Shown here: positions 2,892 to 35,215 of the stretch, in pieces
Position numbering within the stretch: the first letter of the stretch is position 1
Layout: every line of letters begins with the position of its first letter
Origin: Nodosilinea sp. LEGE 07298
GTDB lineage: Bacteria > Cyanobacteriota > Cyanobacteriia > Phormidesmidales > Phormidesmidaceae
Direction of reading: 5' to 3'
Length of the DNA: 35,332 bases
NCBI RefSeq assembly: GCF_015207265.1
Contig: NZ_JADEXE010000038.1
Span: 1-35,332, forward strand
Notes under the pieces: model-generated
Seen by the model: the letters and a program-made list of their open reading frames with translations, nothing else
Told to the model about the DNA's origin: nothing
Databases searched by the model: none
Program-made: the position numbers and the translations under genes

Positions 2892-3101
2892 ATGGATAAA
2901 TTGATGCAATGGTTCAATGATAACAAGGAATGGGTCTTCTCTGGAATTGGCCTCTCAGTGATTGGCTTGATATGGAAGTTCTTCTTTAAGGATAAGTCAT
3001 CGTCTAGTCGCTCACAGACAATTCGTTCCGGCCGCAATTCAACAAATTTTCAAGCTGGTCGCGATATCAATAATGGAAAATTCCCAAAACGCCGTAAATA
3101 A
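2892..3101 (+). CDS. Small single-pass membrane protein with AGRDI motif
   Basis: The start at 2892 is preferred over an upstream ATG at 2871 because AAGGG (2879-2883) sits 8 bases before it. The 69-aa product has a charged N-terminus, one hydrophobic segment at about residues 14-32 and a basic, serine-rich tail. The tail carries an SGRNSTNFQAGRDI motif closely matching SAGPDSVNLLAGRDI at the start of the next protein. The stop codon overlaps the next start (TAATG), so the two are coupled. I infer a membrane anchor or sensor that docks the large partner through the shared motif. I do not recognise a named family. Its low GC content matches the two following genes. Confidence 0.65.
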   Translation: MDKLMQWFNDNKEWVFSGIGLSVIGLIWKFFFKDKSSSSRSQTIRSGRNSTNFQAGRDINNGKFPKRRK

Positions 3102-6100
3102 TGTTTAGTAAAGCCAATAAACAATCCATCAGTGCTGGTCCTGATTCAGTCAACTTATTGGCTGGAAGAGATATCTATTTTTACAACGGCTTTCCAGTAG
3201 AACTTATAGATGAAAAAATCGATGAAGAAATCAGGCTGATTTGCAAATCGCGTGTTTTTAATGAGTTTGACTCTAAAAGCGCACTCAAGCAACTCGGGCA
3301 GCGTCTGATTGAAGGAGATTTTTCCCAAGGGACTGCTGAGGCAAGATGTAGAGCTTTCGCATGGTGCGCTCGATTGCTGGTCCGTAATGAGCTGGAAACC
3401 GCCAAAGATTATCTGGAACAGGCGCAGGAATTGTTTTCTATTCCAGAGGTTAACATTGCAAAAGCTTTTGTTGCCTCGCAAGAAGGCGATCAGCCCTCAG
3501 CATTAAGACGCTTAAATGAAATAGGCACACCAGCTTCACGTTCAGCAGCATTGATGATTAAGGCTTATCACGAGGGTTATTCAAAGGCCATACAGTGGCT
3601 TGTTGACTCTAGAATTGAAATAACCGACTTAGATGCTGATGGTAAAAATTTCCTTTTAAGATGCCATCTTGGTCATGAAAATTGGGACTTAGCATATGAG
3701 TCTCTTCAAGCAGTAACAGAACAGGATTTAGAAGAATCTCCTATACTTCATCATCTGTTAGCGATTACTAAACTCCTAATCGCAGTACCAAAAGAGTTCC
3801 GTTCTGATATAAGAGATCAGCTGCCTTTGAATGCAGCAGGTTTCCCTTTAGCTGATGATTCAGCCTCAATGGTAAATCGCAGGGAAGCACGAGAACATTT
3901 TATAGAATCTGTAAAAGTTGCGAAATACCTGAACTATCCAATTGCTGCGAAGATTGATGAACAATATGCATTGTGGCTTGAACTGAGAGATCCAGAGACT
4001 CTTGAAATTGGAAAAGAACGTCTAAAAGGCAAGTTGAGTGATTTGAGTTCGGATCTTTCTTTCGTCCCACTTGCTCTTCAATTTGGGATAAGTCTGGATA
4101 TAAAAGCAGTAGAAAATGAGATTGAACGGCAAATCGCTTTAAATGGCGGTTTGACAGTAGAATCAGCTCTTACCCGGTTGACCCTTGCTCAGATGCAAGA
4201 TTCTCCACAAGATGTGGCAAACTATATTGATGAACACTTTGATAGACTAACTGAGTTTCTTAATCTCAAATCGATACGATTTCTCCAAATTGAGATGCTA
4301 AGGTGTTCAGGTTTACATGAAAGAGCCAAGGTATGTCTGCAATCTCTCCAAAAAATGGAGCTTTCTGAGGCGGAGAAAAACAATCTTTCTAGAATGATTG
4401 CCGAAGCAGAGGGGGCAGATCCAATCGAAGCGCGCAAATCGCAGTTTCAACAAGATGACTCGCTAAATTCTCTCTTGGCGTTAGTTGTTGAACTAGAAAA
4501 TCAAGAAGATTGGCGTGGTTTGTGTGAATATGGATTGCTTCTCTTTGAACGTACTCGTTCATTACCAGATGCTTGCCGTCTCGTTGATGCGTTAAACAAA
4601 GCTTTCAGATTTGAGCAAGTAATTGAATTTATTCAGACAAATCATGACCTTCGTTTGCAATCCAGATTTCTACAAATTTCTTACGCTCAGGCATTATATT
4701 TTGAAGGAGAGCTCATCAAGGCACGCACAGAACTGGAAAGTCTAACTAATGAACAAGAAAAACCAGATTCTCGTGACTTGTATCTTAGAATCATTGTCTC
4801 ATTGGGCGATTGGAATGCGATATCAAGTATTGCTGAAAAGGATTACAGGGCAAGAGATTCTAGAAGTGCAAACGAATTGCTTAGAACTGCACATTTTGCA
4901 TTAAATATAGGTGCGCCATATTCCAAAGAGCTGCTGTTTGAAGCAGCATCAAAAGGGGCTAATGATCCAGTTGTATTAGCCGATGCTTATTTTTTGGCAA
5001 CCAATGCTGGTTGGGAAGACGGGGAAGTTACACAATGGCTGCATAAAGCTGCTGAGTTGTCGAAAGAGGATGGCCCAATTCAAATAGTAGATTTGCAAGG
5101 CTTGCTCGACAGGAAGCCTCATTGGGATCGTCGAGAGACAGAGATTTTTCAGCTTTTGATCCAGGGCAGGATGCCATTGTTTCTTGCTGCACAAGGGCTT
5201 AATCAATCCCTTATTCATTTGATGCTTTTCCCAGCATTTACCAACCTATTACAGCCCGACCCAAGGCGTAAGCGTTTAATTCCAGCCTACAGTGGTAAAC
5301 GCTTACCACATAAGATTCAGTTGCCTAGTGCAACTGTAGGTATGGACGCAACAGCACTTCTGACGCTTAGTCTGTTAGATCTTCTAGATAAGGCACTGGA
5401 TAGTATTGAGACAGTTTACCTGCCGCATTCAACCCTTGCTTGGTTACTTGGAGAGAAGAAGAAAGCTGAATTTCATCAACCAAGCCGAGTGAAGGATGCA
5501 CATCAGGTTCGTGATCTGCTTTCACAGGGAAAGCTCCAAAAACTTACCATAGATTCTACTTCTGACAATGAGGTAGCTGCCAATGTTGGAGTTGAACTTG
5601 CAACTTTGATTGCTGAAGCAGAAAAAAACAGCGGTGATGGACATGCGCAGCATCTGGTCATTCAACCAGGTCCGGTTTATCGTATTGCGTCATTCATGGA
5701 AGAAGAGGCCGATTTAAGCAATCATGCCAACGTAATGAGTAGTTGTATGGCAGTCGTAGAGAAACTTCGTACTAAAGGTCAAATTACCGCATCAGAAGAA
5801 AAAAAAGCACTTAACTATTTATGTTTTCATGAAAAGCCTTGGCCTCATCAACCACAAGTTTGTGATAATGCAGTGTTATATCTGGATAACTTAGCGGTTA
5901 CCTATTTTCTACAAATTGGACTACTGGGTAAGCTTAAGCTAGCTGGTTTTACTGTGATTCTATCTCCAACAGCTATTGCTGAATATGATGCATTGCTTGC
6001 TTATGAAGGGATTGCTAGTCAAGTCAACGATGCTATTGAGCAGATAAGGTCTGCTCTTAATACAAGAATAGAATCCGGAAAGGTAAAAATAGGAAAATCA

Positions 6101-6898
6101 GGAAATTCTGGCAGATTCAGGGAAAAAGATCTACCAGAGCATCCTACCGTGGATTTACTGGAGCTCGTCCCATATTGTGATGCAATTATTGTAGATGATC
6201 GGGCTTTAAATCACCATGAATATGTAGCTAATGATAGTAAGCAGACACCACTCTTCACTACTTTAGATCTGATTGATACATTAGCAACGATTGGAGTAAT
6301 TTCAGAAGAAGATCGCTTTGAATGCCTCACAAAGCTTCGTAGAGCAGGATACTTCTTTATTAATGTTGGTAAAGAAGAGCTGAGTGCCTATTTGAGCGAT
6401 TCTCAAGTTATCAATCACAAAGTCGTAGAAACCGCAGAATTGAAAGCAGTCCGAGAAAATATCCTTTGTGTTCGGATGCATGACTTCTTACAGTTTCCAC
6501 AGGAAGCTGTGTGGCTCGATATGACTCGGAAAGTTTTAATTGATTCATTGAAAAACTTTTGGAATGAAAACACAGACTTTTCTACTGCTGAGATTTACTC
6601 TAACTGGCTATTAGAACAGGCCGATCTTCGGGGATGGCTGCACCGTGTTGATTTGACCAATAATAGTCATAGTCATGTTATCAAAAATGCACACGCTGTG
6701 CGTCTCTTGTCTCTATTTATAGCTCCCTTTCAATCTTCGCCCGAAGTTTTAGAGGCCTATTGGAAATGGGCTGAGAATGCAGTTTTTATTCCTACCTTGA
6801 GGAACTTTCCTGACTTGCGTGAATGGCTGATTAATTATCAAAAAGAGCAAATTTCTGAAATAGCTGGGCGAGAATTCAATGCAGGAGAATCGCTATGA
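3101..6898 (+). CDS. Large helical-repeat (TPR-like) protein with C-terminal PIN nuclease domain
   Basis: This 1265-aa protein opens with an AGRDI-type motif (residues about 11-26) shared with the upstream membrane protein. Residues about 100-720 are a long array of helix-turn-helix repeats resembling TPRs. A first PIN-like module begins near D749 (VGMDATALLTLSLLDLLD) but lacks an obvious second acidic cluster. A second, complete-looking PIN domain follows, with candidate catalytic acids D929 (YLDN), E961 (AIAEYD), D1027 and D1032 (YCDAIIVDD). PIN domains are metal-dependent RNases. The gene overlaps its neighbours at both ends (TAATG and ATGA), so it is the core of a three-gene operon. Its AT-rich composition differs from the flanks and indicates transfer. 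A role as an abortive or conflict effector is inference. Confidence 0.7.
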   Translation: MFSKANKQSISAGPDSVNLLAGRDIYFYNGFPVELIDEKIDEEIRLICKSRVFNEFDSKSALKQLGQRLIEGDFSQGTAEARCRAFAWCARLLVRNELETAKDYLEQAQELFSIPEVNIAKAFVASQEGDQPSALRRLNEIGTPASRSAALMIKAYHEGYSKAIQWLVDSRIEITDLDADGKNFLLRCHLGHENWDLAYESLQAVTEQDLEESPILHHLLAITKLLIAVPKEFRSDIRDQLPLNAAGFPLADDSASMVNRREAREHFIESVKVAKYLNYPIAAKIDEQYALWLELRDPETLEIGKERLKGKLSDLSSDLSFVPLALQFGISLDIKAVENEIERQIALNGGLTVESALTRLTLAQMQDSPQDVANYIDEHFDRLTEFLNLKSIRFLQIEMLRCSGLHERAKVCLQSLQKMELSEAEKNNLSRMIAEAEGADPIEARKSQFQQDDSLNSLLALVVELENQEDWRGLCEYGLLLFERTRSLPDACRLVDALNKAFRFEQVIEFIQTNHDLRLQSRFLQISYAQALYFEGELIKARTELESLTNEQEKPDSRDLYLRIIVSLGDWNAISSIAEKDYRARDSRSANELLRTAHFALNIGAPYSKELLFEAASKGANDPVVLADAYFLATNAGWEDGEVTQWLHKAAELSKEDGPIQIVDLQGLLDRKPHWDRRETEIFQLLIQGRMPLFLAAQGLNQSLIHLMLFPAFTNLLQPDPRRKRLIPAYSGKRLPHKIQLPSATVGMDATALLTLSLLDLLDKALDSIETVYLPHSTLAWLLGEKKKAEFHQPSRVKDAHQVRDLLSQGKLQKLTIDSTSDNEVAANVGVELATLIAEAEKNSGDGHAQHLVIQPGPVYRIASFMEEEADLSNHANVMSSCMAVVEKLRTKGQITASEEKKALNYLCFHEKPWPHQPQVCDNAVLYLDNLAVTYFLQIGLLGKLKLAGFTVILSPTAIAEYDALLAYEGIASQVNDAIEQIRSALNTRIESGKVKIGKSGNSGRFREKDLPEHPTVDLLELVPYCDAIIVDDRALNHHEYVANDSKQTPLFTTLDLIDTLATIGVISEEDRFECLTKLRRAGYFFINVGKEELSAYLSDSQVINHKVVETAELKAVRENILCVRMHDFLQFPQEAVWLDMTRKVLIDSLKNFWNENTDFSTAEIYSNWLLEQADLRGWLHRVDLTNNSHSHVIKNAHAVRLLSLFIAPFQSSPEVLEAYWKWAENAVFIPTLRNFPDLREWLINYQKEQISEIAGREFNAGESL

Positions 6899-8823
6899 GT
6901 AACTATTCTATACACAAAGCACTATCTGCAAAAGTCTCATTGGACATAATGCCACCATTAATACGTAACACCTTACTACAGGACAGTACGTTTTGCGATG
7001 ATCATGGGTTAAAAGCAGATGTTGTTATCACTTTTGAACCTGTTAGTCTGTCCATATCACGCGCTAAACTCTTTGATGCCATTCGTAGCGTACTTTCTGA
7101 TATGTCTGAAGTCATAGTCACCGATGTCGAAGGGCAAGAATGGAAGTTAGTTAGTAAAAACGAGAACCCCAATGAAGCAACATTGGAGTTATCTCATGAG
7201 GGGGGGAGTTTACTTCTTCCTGATCTTACTTTGCTATCACCCAATCCCCAGTTGCGAATTCGATCATTTAAAGAACAATCTTCTGAGAATAATTTACCAA
7301 GTTCTGTTAAAGAGGATTGGCTAAATATTATTGCACAGCGTCCGCTTAGAGATCATGAAGTTACTGAGTTCAAGAATGATTTATATGATACACCGATCTA
7401 TGTGGCACAATCGTTACGCCGTAAGTTTGAAATAGGAGAAGTTGGTGTTTCAGATCTTGTCCCTGATTCCCGTAGGTATTACGAGAGATTAATTGGCATT
7501 TATGACGGAAGTGCATCAATCAAAGAATATGCTACTCGATCTGCCAGACAAGTGATGACGTGTCTCAGTAGTTTGTCCCCTTATGACGGTTTTTCATTAA
7601 GCTTATTGCTATCTGCGCATTCCTCACTGACACAAGAAATCCAAATTAGTGGTTTCAGTAGTGAAGAGTTATCTCGTACCTATGATCTTATTGCTAAACA
7701 TGGCGATAGGCTCTCTCAAATTGGTGCAATTGAGGTCGGGTTACGAATTCTTCCTGAATTTCCCATTATTGAACCTTTCATAGTCAGTCTTATTGAGCAA
7801 ATTCGAGACGAAAATGTGGATGATTCTGATAGGGGTTTTCAGCTCTTATCAGCCTTGTTCATTCTCGTAGATGGAGAATTATCGGAAAAGAGGCTATTTC
7901 CCTGTGAACCACCTTTTTATAGAAGACTTGCCTCATTAGCACAGGCTGCTCTCATCCATCGTCAGCTTATGAATACTGGAGTAGGAGAGACGTTCCGTAG
8001 ATGGGCTATTAATATTTGTGGCGAGCAATACTATCTGCAAACGCTTGTAGATATGCGTAAGGAGTCACGATGGAATCCAGATTTTGCGGATGCCAGATTA
8101 CTGAAAGCAGAATTCCTAGGTCGTATTGTAATTGCAGCTCAAAAGTACCCAGATGGACTTAGTAATGCCTCATTAGATGACCTTATCAATGGCACAAATA
8201 ACAACAGTCTTTCTTCATTAGCTAAATCTATCTCGCTATTCTTTCCGGGACCACTGGAAGGTGCTGATGCTCCACCAATGACTTTACCCGTTGATTATTA
8301 TGAGATAATTGAAACACAGCTTAATGCAAATGAACTGACAGAAGCGTCTTTTATAGGGTTGATAAACTTAGCAAATTTCTTCCAAATTGATGACAGCTTA
8401 TTGGACTTAGCTGTAAATGTATTACAGAAAAATAATTATGGTTTTTCAAAATTAGAGGATAAATCGCAGCTTTTCTACCTACTAAGCGGATTGGCTGACG
8501 TAGCTGCTGTTTGTAGAAAACCAGAACTTGCTACTGCCTCACGTTTGCTAACTCGCAGATATAGGCAAAATAAGCAATATAGTCTATCAATCGATGAGAC
8601 CTTGAAAATAGGGATTACTGCTGCTGCTAGTTATGAAGATACTGAGAAGTGGCAGGTTTTTATTGGAGAATGGATGACGGAGATGGCTTTCGGCGAGCTT
8701 AAAGAAAACGAAAGCCGCATACTACATTCGCGTTTACAATATCTGTGTTACATCGTTCCTGAACTGTGGTTTTCGTGTTCGAGAGCGGATGCGGCTCTTC
8801 GTGCATATAATGCGATTTCTTGA
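6895..8823 (+). CDS. Uncharacterised 642-aa protein, partner of the PIN effector
   Basis: The start overlaps the stop of the PIN gene (ATGA), so both are made from one transcript by coupled translation. An N-terminal part of about 130 residues is rich in beta-type segments (VVITFEPVSLS, VIVTDVEGQEW). The rest is strongly helical with repeated leucine-rich segments and no signal peptide, membrane helix or recognisable catalytic motif. I do not recognise the family. Position and coupling suggest a subunit that inhibits, scaffolds or senses for the PIN protein. Base composition is low GC like the rest of the operon. No gene follows on this strand, so it ends the operon. Confidence 0.65.
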   Translation: MSNYSIHKALSAKVSLDIMPPLIRNTLLQDSTFCDDHGLKADVVITFEPVSLSISRAKLFDAIRSVLSDMSEVIVTDVEGQEWKLVSKNENPNEATLELSHEGGSLLLPDLTLLSPNPQLRIRSFKEQSSENNLPSSVKEDWLNIIAQRPLRDHEVTEFKNDLYDTPIYVAQSLRRKFEIGEVGVSDLVPDSRRYYERLIGIYDGSASIKEYATRSARQVMTCLSSLSPYDGFSLSLLLSAHSSLTQEIQISGFSSEELSRTYDLIAKHGDRLSQIGAIEVGLRILPEFPIIEPFIVSLIEQIRDENVDDSDRGFQLLSALFILVDGELSEKRLFPCEPPFYRRLASLAQAALIHRQLMNTGVGETFRRWAINICGEQYYLQTLVDMRKESRWNPDFADARLLKAEFLGRIVIAAQKYPDGLSNASLDDLINGTNNNSLSSLAKSISLFFPGPLEGADAPPMTLPVDYYEIIETQLNANELTEASFIGLINLANFFQIDDSLLDLAVNVLQKNNYGFSKLEDKSQLFYLLSGLADVAAVCRKPELATASRLLTRRYRQNKQYSLSIDETLKIGITAAASYEDTEKWQVFIGEWMTEMAFGELKENESRILHSRLQYLCYIVPELWFSCSRADAALRAYNAIS

Positions 8824-21155: not shown

Positions 21156-21983
21156 ATGGATTTAAGCAAGCCATCTGAGTGCTTTTGGCACTGTTCAGTG
21201 CAGTTATCTAGTTCAAAAGCTGTGTCAGTAGCTAATGATTTGACATTTGAAGAATTACACAAGTTGGTTGTATCTCCTTGGCTTTCTGGCACACCCTTCG
21301 TGATTTCTGGAACAATCGTGCGTTCGTCCGCACAGGTTGTAAAAATTAGAGTTGCACATACAGATAAGCCTATGGAGTATTATGCCAAAGCATACAACGA
21401 GCGTATGCGTGTTCAAGGCATTGCTGATATGTCCACTAATCGGAGATTGCTCCCTTTTTCTCATGGTACCGACCTTACTTTTGAGCTACTTTTCTCTGGT
21501 GCAAAGTTAGCAGCACCAGAGCCTGATGAAGCTCTAGTTGAACAGCTATGTCGTCGCTTGCCTCAGTCAGCGAGAATCCTTGGAATGCGCTCACGAAAGG
21601 GGAAGGCGTCCTATGAAATTAACGACGAGTACGATGTTCAAGACCTCTTGCACGCTCTAATTCGTAGCTATATCAAATATTCTGTTCAAGAGGATCCACT
21701 TCCAAAAGTTGCAGGTGCGAAGTCTAGTAGAGCCGATATTTCAATCGAAGATCTTGGCATTCTTATTGAACTCAAGTACGTCCATGGTCCAGACGACCAG
21801 AAGCGTCTATTTGAGGAGTTTTCCCAGGACTTGGTTCTTTATGCGCAGTGGAAGCCACTCAAGACACTTATTTACGTTATTTATAACTCCGCTGACTTAC
21901 GCGACCCAGAAGCTCTTGAAAAACTCTCTTCTGAGACTGAGATTAATGGGAAGCGGTTCGCAGTTAAAGTTGTTTTAGTTTGA
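21156..21983 (+). CDS. Protein with C-terminal DpnII/MboI-type PD-(D/E)XK nuclease domain
   Basis: This 275-aa protein has an N-terminal domain (about 1-150) that is unrecognised. The C-terminal domain begins near residue 158 with EYDVQDLLHALIRSYI, the hallmark entry of the REase_DpnII-MboI family. It continues with SSRADISIED (D194) and ILIELKYV (E205-x-K207), giving the catalytic D...E-x-K set. Such domains are found in restriction and other conflict effectors that cut DNA. No methylase is coupled to it, so it is not a simple restriction-modification pair. AGGA stands about 8 bases before the ATG. It is low GC and inserted between repA and the iterons, flanked by structured repeats, so it is probably mobile cargo. 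Confidence 0.75.
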   Translation: MDLSKPSECFWHCSVQLSSSKAVSVANDLTFEELHKLVVSPWLSGTPFVISGTIVRSSAQVVKIRVAHTDKPMEYYAKAYNERMRVQGIADMSTNRRLLPFSHGTDLTFELLFSGAKLAAPEPDEALVEQLCRRLPQSARILGMRSRKGKASYEINDEYDVQDLLHALIRSYIKYSVQEDPLPKVAGAKSSRADISIEDLGILIELKYVHGPDDQKRLFEEFSQDLVLYAQWKPLKTLIYVIYNSADLRDPEALEKLSSETEINGKRFAVKVVLV

Positions 21984-22791: not shown

Positions 22792-25700
22792 ATGGCTGAT
22801 ATTCACTATTCACCTGAACTGGTGCAGGAATTTACCCGCTATTTTGCCGCTGGTTATGGCTTTAGCACCATCACCGATGCCCGATCATTTGCTTCTTCGG
22901 TCCTCGGGGAAGAGGTACGCCCAGGGCATGAGCTGGCCAAGCTCGTTGATGAAGCCGCCGAAGCTGCCATCGTCAGAGCTGCCCGCAGCATTGTCACAGG
23001 CTCGTTGGGGTCAGTGCAGACATTTCACCGCCTGGTGGATTTATACCAACGACAGCCATCCTTGACGGTGCGGTCATCGACCAGCGTCCAGCAACAGGCA
23101 TACAGCACGCCGGTGCCGATTGCGCAGCTGGCGGCCAGCCTGGCAGGCATCAACACGGGGACTACCGTTTATGAACCGAGTGCGGGACATGGGGCGTTGC
23201 TGTTACTGGCGCATCCAGAGATGGCGACGGTCAACGAACTGAACCCCGACCGCGCCGCCGATCTACGGGCGCAAGGGTTTGCGGTGACCACCGAAGATGC
23301 TTCCCTGTGGTTGCCCGAGACCTTGCATGATGTGGTGATCGCCAATCCACCGTTTGGGGCAGTCGCCAAGGAAGACGGTCAGAATCGACGGTTTGTGTTC
23401 GGACGGTTCGTCACCACCCAGATTGACCACGCGATTGCCCTCCAGGCATTGCAGGCGATGAAGCCTGACGGACGGGCGGTATTGATTCTGGGTGGCAAGA
23501 TGGGTGACGACGAGGCAAGCCGCAGCCAGCGGTACAACACCCGTGAAACCCGAGGTTTTTACCACACCCTCTACAACGGCTATAACGTCACCCGTCATTT
23601 TTCAGTGTGGGGTAGCCTGTATCGACGGCAGGGCGCAGGGTTTCCGATTGATCTGATCGTGATTGAAGGGCGTGGCGCATCCAGTCTGCCCTTGCCAGCG
23701 GCGCAAGTACCCCCTATTTACAAGGACTTTGACCAGTTAGCGGAACTGCTGCATGACCATGTACTTTCCCAACCCCAACGTGTGGGCTCCGTCCGAAGCC
23801 CCTCGCGTGCTGGCGGTACTGACCCCCAGCAACGAAACAACGCTGCTCCGCGCCCGATATCTGGAGCTACTGACGCGCCGGGTAGGGTGGCTGATCGAGC
23901 AATGGCTGCTGGAGGAAACCCCGACGGCGACGCAGGAGCTGCTGGAGGAAACCCCGACGGCGACGCAGGAGCTGCTGATGGCAACGGCCAACGCCATCGA
24001 CCCGTTGGAGATAACGCCGACTTGGGACGGGGAGCCGGTGAGCTGGCAGCGCAACTGGAGCCGAACACTGGTGCAACGCCTGCCCAACATCCAGCAAGCC
24101 CTGACCGCCCAGGCGATCACCTTTCCCGTAACGATCATCAAGGATCGCCACGAGAAGCAGTGGTTGCTGGGGATGTTTCACATGGAAGACCTGCAACCGA
24201 ACCTGGCGGAGTGGCTGGGGGAGATGCGCCTGCTGTAGAGGAACGCAAACAGGTTCCCTACATTCCTAAAAGCCAGGGCGAACCTGTCGGCACTCAGGTG
24301 CCGGTGAACATGGGGACAGCCCTACGCCGCGCCCTCACCGCCCTGGAAGGCATGGTGGGGCCAGTCGATACCTACGTCATGGATCGCCTCGACTACGACA
24401 GTCGGGACGCCCTGTATCAGGCATTGAGCGCGGAACAGATTGACGCCTGTGCTTTGGCGATTGCCAACATGGAGCGCGGTAGCGGCTTTATCTTGGGCGA
24501 TCAAACAGGCGTTGGTAAAGGGCGGGTAGTGGCCGCCATGATTCGCTACGCCCGCCGCATGGGCGTGTTACCTATTTTCGTGACGCGGGATACCCCGCTG
24601 TACGCCGATATTATTCGGGATTTGAATGACATTGGGATGCCTGGCTTTAACCCGCTGGTGACCAACAGCAATCTCAAACTGCCCTTACCTGATGGGCGCA
24701 TCCTGAAAACCGATACCACCCTGCACAAGCAGATGCTGGAGCAGTTGGTGGACGGTGGGCCGCTGCGGGGCTACGACGGCATTTTCACCACCTATCACCA
24801 GATGCAGACGGTACGCGGCCAAGAGACCACCCGCCGTGCTTTCCTGCGACGGTTTGCCGAAAACAGCTTGCTGATTCTCGATGAGAGCCACGAGGCTGGT
24901 GGTTCGATGAGTGATCGCCGTAAAGGTCAGGAGAATTGCGCCCCCAACCGTGCTGATTTCGCCCGTCAACTGGTGCATACAGCGCAAGGTGTGGTGTATT
25001 CCAGTGCCACCTATGCCAAAGCTCCTGAGGTCATGGACCTGTATGCCCGCACCGACATGGCAAAGGCAGTCGATGGAATGGGGTCGCTCACCTCGATGGT
25101 GGCTTATGGCGGCGTGCCTCTGCAACAGACCTTGGCCACCATGCTGACCGAGGCGGGGCAGTACTGCCGCCGCGAGCGTTCATTTGAAGGGGTGCGCTTC
25201 GATCCCGCGATTGTGCCAGTGGATCGGGACGTGGCGGAGAACATATCCCGCATCATGGCGGGCATCATGCAGTTTGACCGCTGCAAGCAGAAGGCGGTCA
25301 AAGGGATGGACAAACGCCTGAAGTCAGAGGCTAAGGCGGTGCTGGCGGACGGCTCGACGGGGTCAGCGGGTGCATCCAGCACCAACTTCACCAGCATCAT
25401 GCATAACCTGATCGATCAGATGCTGTTCGCCCTGAAAGCCGAGGCAACCGTTCAACAGTCATTAAGCCTGCTGCGGCAAGACAGACGGGAAAAACCCGTG
25501 ATTGCCGTCGCCAACACCATGGGCAGTTTCATCCAGATGTATGCCACCCAGCATGACCTGGCGGTGGGCGATGCACTGGATATGGACTTTGGCGACCTAC
25601 TCCGCCGCTACCTAGAGCGTAGCCGTGATGTGATTGTTGGTGATGCCTACGGCGAGAAACGCCGGGTCCACCTCAGCGATGATGATCTGAGTGATGAGGG

Positions 25701-28700
25701 GCTATCCCACTATCAAGATGTGCTGGCACTGATTGCGGAAACCGATTTCAGCGGCGTACCCGTCAGCCCGATTGATTACATTATCCAGCGGCTAGCGGCG
25801 GAGGGATTCCGCGTCGGTGAGGTCACAGGACGCGAACACATCATTGCCTATGGGGCGGATGGCGACGCCACCTATAGACGGCGGACAGCGGAGGAACGCA
25901 GCAAGCGCACGGCGGTGGAGACGGTTAAAGCCTTTAATGCGGGGCATCTGGATGCGATTATCCTCAACCGCTCTGGCTCGACGGGGATTTCCCTGCACGC
26001 TTCAGCGGCATTTGCCGATCAATCCCCACGTCACATGTTGCTGGCTCAATGTGAGCGCGATATTAACCTTGTTATGCAGATGTTGGGGCGCATTCACCGT
26101 ACAGGACAGGTGGTGCCACCCAGCTTTACCCTGCTGATGGCGGACATCCCCGCCGAGAAACGCCCTGGCATTGTCTTGATGCGCAAGATGGCCTCGCTGA
26201 ATGCCAACACCACGGCAGCCCGCTCCAGCGGCATTGCCTTGGAGGATGTGCCTGATTTTCTGAATGAGTATGGCGATCAGGTGGTGGCCGAGCTGATGCT
26301 GTTCCACCCTGACATTCATGAGCGGCTCGACTACCCGTTGCAGGATGTGGACAGCGGGCACAGCGATGCTGAAGCCACCAAGCGGGTAACGGGGCGTATT
26401 CCGTTGTTGCCGCTGGCGGATCAGGAATCCCTGTATGACCTGATCGAACAACGCTACACCGCCTTTTTGCGGCAGCAGGAAGCCCTGGGTGAATCGCTAC
26501 TGGAAGCCAGCACCCTTGATCTGGATGCCAAAACGATGGCACGGATGGAAATTCAGCCCGCTGATCCAGAGGAAACCTCGCCATTTTGTGGGGCGGTGTA
26601 TCTGGAGGCGGTGGACGTGAAAACCCCACGCAAGCCCTACCCCACCCTGCAAGTGGTCAACACGGTGCGCAAGAACCTGGGGCTGGGTGAAGTCAAAACC
26701 GTTGCCGAGCATGACTTTACGGCGACAGCGACCTGTGCCACGGCGACCGTCGGTGATGTGGTCGAGGCATTGGAGAAGGAAGCGAGATTCTATCGGCTGT
26801 TCAAGGGTGATCGCGCCAAAGCCATTGATACCCAACTGGCTCATGTACGCGGGATATTGGCTGAGTTCATCCCTGGTCAGCGGGTGCGCTTGGTCACGGG
26901 TAAGGGCGACGTGACCTATGGCGTGGTGGCGAAGGTCTGGCGACCTATGGAGGGCAAGGGCAGCCCCGCAGCCCCATCGGCGTGGGAAGTACACCTGCTA
27001 TTGACCGATTCCCTACAAGAAATCAGCCTGCCGTTGTCGCGCATCAACACGGGCAAGGACAATGCGGCCACCTTGACGGTGCAAGAACATGACGCGGCGG
27101 GGGATGAGATTTACAGCAGTTTTGACCTGCGGCAAAGCCATAACCGCGAAACACGGCAGATGTTCACGGGCAATCTGCTGCGAGCCTACGGCAAATACCC
27201 AGGGCATTTGGTCAACTTCACCGACCAACAGGGGCGGATTCGGCAGGGATTACTCACAGGACGCGGTTTTGACATTGAGCGATCACTGGAGCAAGAACCC
27301 GTGTTGTTGCCAACTCTGGGCGATGCGCGGCGGTTTTTGTTCGATGAGATGGGGGGTAAGGGGCAACTGAAGACCCGCGAAGGGCTGCTGACCGTCAAAG
27401 CAGGCAAAGACGGCGGGTTGGTGCTGATCACCAGCAAAGCCAAAGAAATCGGCGGGCAGTATTTTCTGAATGACCAGCTGCTGACCGCCGCCGGTGCCGA
27501 GTTCTTCTCGGTGGCGGATCGCATGGAGTGCCATGTTGATCCTGATCGGGTGGATATCGTGCTGGCCACCTTGGTGCATGACCTCAAAAAGAACCTGTAC
27601 GCCTTTGAGCAGCGGGATCGGGCGCGAACGATGCTGGGGCAAGCCCTGCCAGCCTTCCAGGCGATACCCGAACCTGTCGTTCTTAAACCCTTAATACCCC
27701 CTGCTATCGCTTCAGATCAGGTGCAGCAGAGTGTAGCACCGCCGTCTGCCGCCCTGCCGCATGATGCAGCAACAGATGTAGCAGCGCATGGAGCAGAACC
27801 TGCGGATGTCGATGAAGAAGCCATTGCCCGCCAACAGCGGGTGTTGTCGCCGCTACAGGGTGCAACAACACAACCGCCACGCTTGGCTACACCCTCGGGA
27901 CAGATGGGTGGAGCAGAACGGCAGGTTGCTCGCCTGCTGAACCGTGCCGATTTGTTGGAGGCGGTGATGCAGGGTGAGGATTTTCACCTGAAAGCCGAGA
28001 ATAACCCCTTCATCCCGTTGGTGGTGGAACGCCACGGTGAGTACCTGTACCTGACCCATTATCTGGAGCGTGGCGGTGACCTGTGCATCGACAGCGAGAT
28101 GGTCTTCAGCATTGATGGTCAGGGGCGGTTGTCGCTGTTGGAAACGGCGGTGTTTGGGCCCGTGGGGGAATCCCGCAGCCGTGATCGTGGCTTTGCAGGG
28201 GTATTTGCGCGGAATCTGTTGCGGCAGGGCTTCGCTGAGGCCCTGCAACGCGCCTGGTCGAACCAATCTGAACCGCCAGAACCAGAGCCGGTGGTGGCGG
28301 AGGAGCTGGAGCAATTGTCGCTGTTTGAATTGAGTGCGATCAGTGCAGAGGTACAGACTGGCACCACCACCGATCCATCGCGGGAGCAAAACCCCGTTCC
28401 ATCGTTAGCGGATCTGTGGGCATGGGGGCGAGCCGCCCGCGATCTCAACTTGCCCCGACAACAGCAGATGCAGATTCGCGCCCTGACCAGCAAGGTGCAG
28501 CAAGAACAGCCCGTGACCTTCACGGCGGCAGTGTTGCAGCACATGCAGGCGGATATAGAACGCTACGAACCCTTCCAGCAACGCGGTGCAACAGTGGTTG
28601 CCACAGCCCGCGACATCCTGCAACAGGTCGGGCATCGTGATGGGCGCAATGGCTTGACCTTTGGTGGCCGTATTTATGAACTACGCCAGCAGGGTGATCG

Positions 28701-28848
28701 CCTCGATGTTTGGAAGCGATCAGGGCGAAAAACCGAAATCATCCTACAAGCTATGGGGGAACGGGTGCAGCGCACCACGGTGACAGAGGAAGACCTGCGG
28801 CGGTTTGAGGTACTGACCGCCCGCTTGCAGGCGCGTGGCGCAGCCTAA
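22792..28848 (+). CDS. Giant N6-adenine methylase / Strawberry-notch-type helicase fusion
   Basis: The frame encodes 2018 aa. A methylase domain (about 1-310) has motif I EPSAGHG at 128-134 and NPPFG at 185-189. A superfamily-2 helicase region of Strawberry-notch type has Walker A DQTGVGKGR at 570-578, DESH at 697-700, motif III-like VYSSATYAK, GSTGISLHASAAFADQSPRH and motif VI QMLGRIHRTGQ at 1096-1106. A long C-terminal part (about 1300-2018) has no named domain. Such proteins occur on large plasmids and phages near ArdC and are thought to protect DNA from host defence. Between methylase and helicase (about 322-482) the frame is low complexity (G/A/P/D-rich), and a protein-like ORF lies there in the +1 frame. 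That raises the question whether this is one protein or a reading through an intervening gene. Confidence 0.85.
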   Translation: MADIHYSPELVQEFTRYFAAGYGFSTITDARSFASSVLGEEVRPGHELAKLVDEAAEAAIVRAARSIVTGSLGSVQTFHRLVDLYQRQPSLTVRSSTSVQQQAYSTPVPIAQLAASLAGINTGTTVYEPSAGHGALLLLAHPEMATVNELNPDRAADLRAQGFAVTTEDASLWLPETLHDVVIANPPFGAVAKEDGQNRRFVFGRFVTTQIDHAIALQALQAMKPDGRAVLILGGKMGDDEASRSQRYNTRETRGFYHTLYNGYNVTRHFSVWGSLYRRQGAGFPIDLIVIEGRGASSLPLPAAQVPPIYKDFDQLAELLHDHVLSQPQRVGSVRSPSRAGGTDPQQRNNAAPRPISGATDAPGRVADRAMAAGGNPDGDAGAAGGNPDGDAGAADGNGQRHRPVGDNADLGRGAGELAAQLEPNTGATPAQHPASPDRPGDHLSRNDHQGSPREAVVAGDVSHGRPATEPGGVAGGDAPAVEERKQVPYIPKSQGEPVGTQVPVNMGTALRRALTALEGMVGPVDTYVMDRLDYDSRDALYQALSAEQIDACALAIANMERGSGFILGDQTGVGKGRVVAAMIRYARRMGVLPIFVTRDTPLYADIIRDLNDIGMPGFNPLVTNSNLKLPLPDGRILKTDTTLHKQMLEQLVDGGPLRGYDGIFTTYHQMQTVRGQETTRRAFLRRFAENSLLILDESHEAGGSMSDRRKGQENCAPNRADFARQLVHTAQGVVYSSATYAKAPEVMDLYARTDMAKAVDGMGSLTSMVAYGGVPLQQTLATMLTEAGQYCRRERSFEGVRFDPAIVPVDRDVAENISRIMAGIMQFDRCKQKAVKGMDKRLKSEAKAVLADGSTGSAGASSTNFTSIMHNLIDQMLFALKAEATVQQSLSLLRQDRREKPVIAVANTMGSFIQMYATQHDLAVGDALDMDFGDLLRRYLERSRDVIVGDAYGEKRRVHLSDDDLSDEGLSHYQDVLALIAETDFSGVPVSPIDYIIQRLAAEGFRVGEVTGREHIIAYGADGDATYRRRTAEERSKRTAVETVKAFNAGHLDAIILNRSGSTGISLHASAAFADQSPRHMLLAQCERDINLVMQMLGRIHRTGQVVPPSFTLLMADIPAEKRPGIVLMRKMASLNANTTAARSSGIALEDVPDFLNEYGDQVVAELMLFHPDIHERLDYPLQDVDSGHSDAEATKRVTGRIPLLPLADQESLYDLIEQRYTAFLRQQEALGESLLEASTLDLDAKTMARMEIQPADPEETSPFCGAVYLEAVDVKTPRKPYPTLQVVNTVRKNLGLGEVKTVAEHDFTATATCATATVGDVVEALEKEARFYRLFKGDRAKAIDTQLAHVRGILAEFIPGQRVRLVTGKGDVTYGVVAKVWRPMEGKGSPAAPSAWEVHLLLTDSLQEISLPLSRINTGKDNAATLTVQEHDAAGDEIYSSFDLRQSHNRETRQMFTGNLLRAYGKYPGHLVNFTDQQGRIRQGLLTGRGFDIERSLEQEPVLLPTLGDARRFLFDEMGGKGQLKTREGLLTVKAGKDGGLVLITSKAKEIGGQYFLNDQLLTAAGAEFFSVADRMECHVDPDRVDIVLATLVHDLKKNLYAFEQRDRARTMLGQALPAFQAIPEPVVLKPLIPPAIASDQVQQSVAPPSAALPHDAATDVAAHGAEPADVDEEAIARQQRVLSPLQGATTQPPRLATPSGQMGGAERQVARLLNRADLLEAVMQGEDFHLKAENNPFIPLVVERHGEYLYLTHYLERGGDLCIDSEMVFSIDGQGRLSLLETAVFGPVGESRSRDRGFAGVFARNLLRQGFAEALQRAWSNQSEPPEPEPVVAEELEQLSLFELSAISAEVQTGTTTDPSREQNPVPSLADLWAWGRAARDLNLPRQQQMQIRALTSKVQQEQPVTFTAAVLQHMQADIERYEPFQQRGATVVATARDILQQVGHRDGRNGLTFGGRIYELRQQGDRLDVWKRSGRKTEIILQAMGERVQRTTVTEEDLRRFEVLTARLQARGAA
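23753..24238 (+). CDS. Candidate overlapping gene (161 aa) in +1 frame inside the methylase-helicase gene
   Basis: The ORF starts at ATG 23753 (a second ATG at 23759) just after the methylase domain and stops at TAG 24238, just before the helicase segment resumes. Its product is tryptophan- and leucine-rich and looks globular: RARYLELLTRRVGWLIEQWL, then FPVTIIKDRHEKQWLLGMF. The annotated frame here is low complexity. Over the last 38 codons I count G or C at the third position in 32 of 38 in this frame and 10 of 38 in the annotated one; the genes nearby favour G/C. Other frames, including minus-strand ones, are also open here, which tempers the claim. It may be an overprinted gene, or the native sequence of the linker reached by frameshifting. 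No family recognised. Confidence 0.5.
   Translation: MTMYFPNPNVWAPSEAPRVLAVLTPSNETTLLRARYLELLTRRVGWLIEQWLLEETPTATQELLEETPTATQELLMATANAIDPLEITPTWDGEPVSWQRNWSRTLVQRLPNIQQALTAQAITFPVTIIKDRHEKQWLLGMFHMEDLQPNLAEWLGEMRLL
23906..23971. repeat. Tandem 33-bp direct repeat (two copies)
   Basis: Two identical 33-base units (23906-23938 and 23939-23971) begin with CTGCTGGAGGAAACC. The unit is a multiple of three, so it duplicates EETPTATQELL in the +1 frame and AGGNPDGDAGA in the annotated frame without disturbing either. Confidence 0.8.
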
Positions 28849-34523: not shown

Positions 34524-34588
34524 TCTAAGATTTGTCACTTTTACATGGCTGCATTGTAAGATGTTGGCATGTATTCTGTGGTTGCCTC

Positions 34589-35215
34589 ATGAAAGTTCTG
34601 GCCATCCTCTCGCAAAAAGGTGGTGCCGGTAAAACCACCCTCGCCCTCAACCTCGCCGTCCAAGCAGAAATGGACGGTAAAGCCACCGCGATTATTGACC
34701 TTGACCCTCAAGCCAGTGCCACCAGTTGGGGTGATAGCCGTGATGGCGAAGCCCCCACCGTGGTATCAGCACAGGCTTCCCGCTTATCTCATGTTCTCGA
34801 TGCCGCTGGCAACGCGGGAGCCCATTTCACGATCATTGACTCAGCCCCCCATTCCGAAAGCACCGCCCTCGCCGCTGCCCGTGCCGCTGATTTGGTACTC
34901 ATTCCCTGTCGCCCCGCCATCCTCGACCTCAGAGCCATCAAAGACACCATCGACATCGTGCGCCTAGCAAAGGTAGCTGGTGCTGTGGTCTTGAACGCTG
35001 TGCCGCCCAGAGGGCAATCCATCGCTTTAGAAGCTGAACAAGCCATTGCTTCCTACGATATGTCCGTGGTTCCGATTCACATCGGACAACGCGCCGCTTT
35101 CGTGCATTCGCTGACTGCTGGACAGACGGTTCAAGATTATGAGCCCAGCGGAAAAGCAGCCAATGAAATTAGAACCCTCTACAAGTGGCTCTGGAATCAG
35201 GCAAGCATGGCATAA
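34589..35215 (+). CDS. parA: ParA partition ATPase
   Basis: This 208-aa deviant-Walker ATPase begins MKVLAILSQKGGAGKTTLAL, with KGGAGKTT at about 10-17, DLDPQASATSW near 40-50 and IIDSAPHSES near 80-90. Its short length and lack of an N-terminal HTH fit the type Ib (ParF-like) class, which pairs with a small RHH centromere-binding protein. The ATG at 34589 is used because upstream codons in the frame are not conserved and the protein starts at the first strand. The next gene starts 31 bases downstream and is its probable partner. Repeats and palindromes upstream are the likely partition site. Confidence 0.9.
   Translation: MKVLAILSQKGGAGKTTLALNLAVQAEMDGKATAIIDLDPQASATSWGDSRDGEAPTVVSAQASRLSHVLDAAGNAGAHFTIIDSAPHSESTALAAARAADLVLIPCRPAILDLRAIKDTIDIVRLAKVAGAVVLNAVPPRGQSIALEAEQAIASYDMSVVPIHIGQRAAFVHSLTAGQTVQDYEPSGKAANEIRTLYKWLWNQASMA

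Follow-up and report, generated by a model that had tools for sequence, protein, structure and literature searches.

A likely +1-frame gene nested in the linker of mobile-element methylase-helicase genes of cyanobacteria

We describe what is very likely a real gene nested in the +1 frame of another, within the linker that joins the two enzymatic parts of a large mobile-element gene encoding an adenine methylase (MTase) and a helicase. The nested gene would be translated by internal initiation and yield a compact, mostly helical protein, although this translation is inferred and no expression data are available. In the scheme we propose, two products would be made from one mRNA. Ribosomes starting at the upstream ATG would read frame 0 through the linker, generating the MTase-helicase fusion, while others would initiate at an internal Shine-Dalgarno (SD) sequence and ATG where the MTase domain ends, generating the small protein separately. 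Within the overlap, selection would act on the sequence of the nested protein, and the enclosing frame would need only to remain stop-free in order to serve as a flexible tether. Of this scheme, sequence statistics establish that the +1 frame is coding, that frame 0 is kept open, that an internal ribosome-binding signal exists and that the nested gene is homologous to non-overlapping ones. The main reading of a first-pass annotation of this DNA, that the overlapping frame is a real gene, is supported by several lines of evidence: cross-phylum conservation in the same nested position, purifying selection, an internal SD with ATG, non-overlapping homologues and confident predicted folds.

The enclosing gene, its linker and its homologues

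The window, i.e. the whole stretch of DNA that was analysed (35,332 nucleotides from Nodosilinea sp. LEGE 07298), contains a giant gene whose product has an MTase domain with an NPPF motif (PF02384, E 5.5e-5, over the cut-off) and, on the C-terminal side, a strawberry-notch-type helicase (PF13872, 7.5e-20; PF13871, 3.4e-24). The features of this locus are listed in Table 1. The first-pass annotation had claimed that an ORF in the +1 frame of this gene begins and ends at two domain boundaries. The ORF is present, with its own ATG and TAG, and it fills the linker between the N6_Mtase and AAA_34 matches. The two frames differ in composition much as had been claimed. The enclosing frame has a GC3 of 0.63 in the MTase part and 0.68 in the helicase part, and of 0.44 in the linker, while the counts reported for the last 38 codons (third-position G/C in 32 of 38 for the nested frame versus 10 of 38 for the enclosing one) are exact. 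Hydrophobic residues represent only 10% of the enclosing-frame linker, which is disorder-prone and had been described as low complexity, versus 36% of the nested product, which had been described as globular and for which structure prediction yields a confident fold (see below). Inside the overlap, a tandem repeat makes both products of the window copy longer, with repeats in each, and closes neither frame.

Table 1. Coordinates of the features of the MTase-helicase locus in the window
Feature	Position	Strand	Basis
Enclosing ORF, 2018 aa: N6-adenine methylase and strawberry-notch-type helicase (and DUF6908)	22792..28848	+	Pfam
N6_Mtase Pfam match, aa 178-233, frame 0, with NPPF motif	23323..23490	+	
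GGA within AGCGGAA, weak Shine-Dalgarno-like remnant 5' of the nested ATG	23742..23744	+	sequence
Frame-0 linker, disorder-prone, stop-free, amino-acid constraint among homologues not detectable	23752..24255	+	
Putative nested gene, +1 frame, 161 aa, ATG to TAG, stop at 24236-24238	23753..24238	+	
33-bp tandem repeat, 2.2 copies, inside the overlap	23905..23977	+	
AAA_34 (strawberry notch NTPase) match, aa 543-812	24418..25227	+	
Helicase_C_4 (strawberry notch C-terminal) match, aa 993-1169	25768..26298	+	
DUF6908 match, aa 1712-1814	27925..28233	+	

When the nested product was used as a query, four further copies were found in the same genome, together with copies on Picosynechococcus plasmids. 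Inspected one by one, all these matches lie in the +1 frame of an MTase-helicase gene, and the source genome harbors five MTase-nested-helicase copies in all (C171, C315, C373, C489 and C565). Using the helicase as bait, we assembled approximately 200 loci; 62 contigs of genomes and 80 of IMG/VR contributed, as did further genomes. Iterating a profile of the nested protein led to a converged set of 119 matches over these loci, 117 of which are shifted by +1 with respect to the helicase frame. The remaining two are a stand-alone gene of Leptolyngbya boryana p1 (L205) and a copy fused to the helicase frame (L039:3320-9298), in which the nested gene continues in-frame into the helicase owing to an apparent one-base indel near its end, which is either real or an assembly error. 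As a guard against the bias of a helicase bait, 390 Cyanobacteriia genomes were searched independently of the helicase, which identified the nested family in 56 of them; a separate search found the helicase in 58. The family occurs in cyanobacteria, two alphaproteobacteria (Paracoccus and Sediminimonas) and IMG/VR contigs; a large terminase is also present in two of the ten IMG/VR records tested.

These copies bear on the doubt raised previously about indels at 23.75 and 24.24 kb. The fused copy L039 illustrates how a single-base indel can bring the nested gene into the helicase frame, but an arrangement that recurs five times in the source genome and more than 100 times elsewhere, including on finished plasmids (L006-L010 and L246), is virtually impossible to ascribe to sequencing or assembly errors.

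Annotation misses the nested gene in nearly all records inspected. On plasmid pAQ6 of the laboratory model strain Picosynechococcus PCC 7002, for example, the nested copy (L246:2782-3288, on the complement of pAQ6 at about 100507..101013; profile E 3e-40, GAGG before the ATG) is unannotated inside SYNPCC7002_RS15125. Because cyanobacterial plasmids, predicted phages and two alphaproteobacteria all share the conserved nested gene, many such large MTase-helicase genes probably encode an unannotated small protein, as far as can be judged from sequence. The nested gene is not universal, since seven proteobacterial plasmid relatives (L195, L196 and L198-L202) and an Acinetobacter phage (L204) have MTase-helicases with no comparable +1 gene in the linker. 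A tblastn search with the nested protein of a viral contig against 50,697 named phages returned no match, a search of Rfam with positions 23400-24600 of the window gave none either, and our literature searches found no report of the nested gene.

Elsewhere in the window, the ORF upstream of the MTase-helicase gene (21156-21983) matched the Aga_Helical-REase models of PADLOC (1.5e-20), and two adjacent genes (3101-8823) matched parts of a TPR-GreAB-C-PIN conflict system. A ParA-type partition ATPase (NF041546) is encoded at 34532-35215, which is consistent with a plasmid contig.

Open frames and selection in the overlap

An open +1 frame in a GC-biased, low-complexity linker might simply be due to chance, which the first-pass annotation had insisted must be excluded. 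At the window locus alone it cannot be, since shuffling synonymous codons of the enclosing frame preserves an open +1 frame in 13% of trials, which is not significant singly, and minus-strand frames are open there as well. The homologues decide the matter. In 114 distinct nested copies there is not a single stop in either the nested or the enclosing frame, while the +2 frame contains 1473. When the nested proteins were kept and their synonymous codons shuffled, the enclosing frame of the 114 copies acquired 307 ± 13 stops (minimum 270), and when the enclosing proteins were kept instead, the +1 frame acquired 320 ± 12 (minimum 273). The result was the same upon reduction to 60 clusters, with no stops observed versus 177 ± 10 (minimum 150) expected in frame 0 and 162 ± 9 (minimum 134) in +1. 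In 58 of these 60 clusters, no +1 stretch within the surrounding ~3 kb is longer than the nested gene. The openness of the minus strand proved to be incidental, as the minus frames contain stops in 89-107 of the 114 homologues.

Rates of substitution computed separately for each frame, a check that had been suggested beforehand, point in the same direction. We used 31 independent close pairs, among which the nested/helicase pair of the window copy does not figure. In the overlap, 873 substitutions fall at the third position of the nested frame versus 419 and 335 at the other positions; in the flanking MTase and helicase parts, the excess is at the frame-0 third position, as is normal. The ratio of nonsynonymous to synonymous changes (N/S) is 0.34 for the nested frame (0.27-0.37 when conditional) and 0.88-1.22 for the enclosing frame in the overlap, conditional on the effect in the nested frame. 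This substitution pattern shows that purifying selection protects the +1 protein. Taken with the absence of stops, the ratios for the enclosing frame imply a linker sequence that is free to drift but must stay open. An enclosing peptide conserved in homologues that carry +1 stops would have refuted the nested gene, and we found the opposite. A peptide singled out in the first-pass annotation is conserved in Brasilonema (KQWLLGMF). With a +1 frame that is open in every copy and has an N/S of about 0.3, and with confident folds and non-overlapping homologous genes to be accounted for, mere chance is an extremely unlikely explanation.

The same data speak to whether the frame-0 linker is translated. 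The locus might comprise three translation units, namely the MTase, the nested protein and, upon a restart beyond the nested stop, the helicase, with the frame-0 linker left untranslated. Loci do exist in which an MTase gene, a small gene of the family and a helicase gene follow each other without overlap (L205:2902-3402, L242 and L244), and PGAP has annotated the Gloeobacter locus as a nested CDS plus a helicase CDS. However, an untranslated linker should have accumulated about 300 frame-0 stops in 114 copies, and there are none; non-overlapping members of the family, both stand-alone and in three-gene loci, do gather stops in the frame equivalent to the enclosing one (1-18 stops). In addition, a frame-0 start with an SD is found near the nested stop in only 23 of the 114 copies, and a conserved restart of the helicase was not seen. 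Restarting has thus only a slim chance of being right. A frame 0 that is stop-free and yet unconstrained in sequence indicates that the linker needs to be translated by read-through, as in the two-product scheme proposed above.

Initiation of the nested frame

How ribosomes would reach the nested frame can be inferred from the sequences preceding it. Of the nested starts, 82% are preceded by an SD core that is 5 nt or longer; among 2870 control +1 ATGs taken from these genes, the share is 2.6%. Since the nested start codons were picked partly by their SD, this contrast is somewhat inflated; a second one, which relies on the codons used for Lys-Glu, is less affected. Lys-Glu pairs of frame 0 that underlie the nested SD are encoded by AAG GAG in 77 of 84 instances; for pairs at other sites of these genes the figure is 41 of 381 (p=9e-49), and the contrast persists on clusters (32/36 versus 31/186, p=6e-17). 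In the window copy the SD is merely a weak one (GGA), at a place where most homologues have AAGGAG or GAGG. The nested start codon is ATG in 110 of 114 copies, and its distance from the SD is that of initiation.

The first-pass annotation had left room for another possibility, that the linker is normally reached by frameshifting. Programmed frameshifting from the MTase into the +1 frame would produce an MTase-nested fusion, the frame-0 linker being incidental. Upstream SD-like elements can stimulate frameshifting, as in prfB and dnaX, and some copies have a +1 frame that is already open well 5' of the ATG. In 39 of 114 copies, however, a stop of the nested frame directly precedes the ATG, and in 82 of 114 there is one within 15 nt upstream, which favors internal initiation over frameshifting. 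The retention of the ATG, with an SD at a spacing typical of initiation, and an enclosing frame that is stop-free in every copy despite its unconstrained sequence also count against it. We consider frameshifting very unlikely and retain internal initiation.

The predicted product, its non-overlapping relatives and comparable systems

Nested members range in size from about 90 to 200 aa. As assessed by AlphaFold2, using an alignment of 75 family members, the nested protein of the window has a confidently predicted fold (pLDDT 92.6, pTM 0.88), and a 132-aa member from a viral contig was predicted equally to be folded (pLDDT 93.3, pTM 0.86), with its secondary structure elements in the same order. 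By profile comparison, a shorter viral type has a helical core in common with the family (probability 86%, E 5e-6). No match over cut-off was found for the nested product in Pfam, NCBIfam, PHROGs, PADLOC or PDB sequences; one stand-alone member has a 20-bit match to ParD, which does not reach the Pfam cut-off. When both models were searched against PDB and BFVD, there was no Foldseek match below E 1 and the best VIA Z was 3.0, so that no match was convincing. The modelled fold may be new, although a missing match does not prove novelty.

Apart from the three-gene loci, there are stand-alone genes of the family in cyanobacterial genomes (L237-L241 and L243). Five of the six genomes with stand-alone members that were searched lack a helicase of the MTase-helicase kind, which shows that the protein can be of use by itself and is possibly independent of the MTase-helicase. 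The chromosomal neighbors of two of them (L240 and L243) resemble, by eye, what we take to be the ATP synthase genes atpG/atpA. Distances between nested proteins correlate with those between helicases (r=0.80), indicating that nested gene and helicase have been inherited jointly. Among the 89 members placed in a tree, the stand-alone ones fall inside cyanobacterial nested groups, and supported branches force at least four changes of label. Because nested copies are present on either side of the deepest split that the tree shows, nesting is probably ancient and the stand-alone genes have probably escaped from it; without an established root, the reverse, repeated nesting, is not excluded. The three forms of the gene (nested, three-gene and stand-alone) provide natural controls for one another.

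Enclosing proteins of this kind belong with a known dyad of polyvalent proteins, LPD36-N6A MTase-SWI2/SNF2, in its strawberry-notch variant, in which an adenine MTase is likewise followed by a strawberry-notch ATPase and which is likewise found on plasmids and viral contigs (PMC5512222). A part in modifying DNA or countering restriction while DNA is transferred has been proposed for DarB-like dyads; overlapping genes or frameshifts are not mentioned in that work (PMC5512222), which makes the nested gene a new element and a candidate third component of DarB-like MTase-helicase systems used in DNA transfer. DarB of phage P1, the archetype of the dyad, resembles the enclosing protein in being annotated as an MTase-helicase and in protecting DNA from restriction, but is not hit by our helicase profile. 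The open +1 stretches of P1 darB contain no match to the nested family and no good SD-ATG. Because of its position, its co-inheritance with the helicase and the three-gene form, the nested product most likely serves the MTase-helicase as a regulator or an accessory subunit when DNA is modified or restriction is countered, an inference to which we give even chances. We lean slightly towards a broader picture, that of a three-part mobile-element system whose small protein, with its unmatched predicted fold, was long kept out-of-frame in a tether, from which it repeatedly broke free as an ordinary chromosomal gene of cyanobacteria. If this is true, nested coding would be a stable way of packaging an obligate partner with its enzyme at a fixed dose, and the linkers of other giant multidomain proteins could be screened for it.

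Long, deeply conserved out-of-frame nested genes have rarely been documented beyond small viruses, and the present case would show that the stretch joining two domains can cheaply accommodate a second protein. In phage Rz/Rz1-type pairs, whose partners are lysis proteins, and in other out-of-frame nested genes, the second protein is encoded in the +1 frame from its own start inside another gene. In contrast, the overlap described here falls where one enzyme domain is linked to another, and non-overlapping genes of the nested family exist as well. Cas11, a small subunit made by internal translation of cas8 or cas10, similarly starts inside the gene of its large partner, but is in frame with the large protein (PMC11899642), whereas the nested gene uses another frame. 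Overprinted overlapping genes of Escherichia coli also draw two proteins from one stretch of bacterial DNA but are described as recent or orphan (PMC4683798, PMC9927249), whereas conservation of the nested gene extends over cyanobacteria, alphaproteobacteria and viral contigs. Finally, there are +1 ORFs, for which homology to the family has not been shown, at the corresponding place in a giant gene of Bacteroides phage BS-TP4 (L203:3100-3456) and Pseudomonas aeruginosa pIHMA87 (L206:2965-3465), and these could be independent cases.
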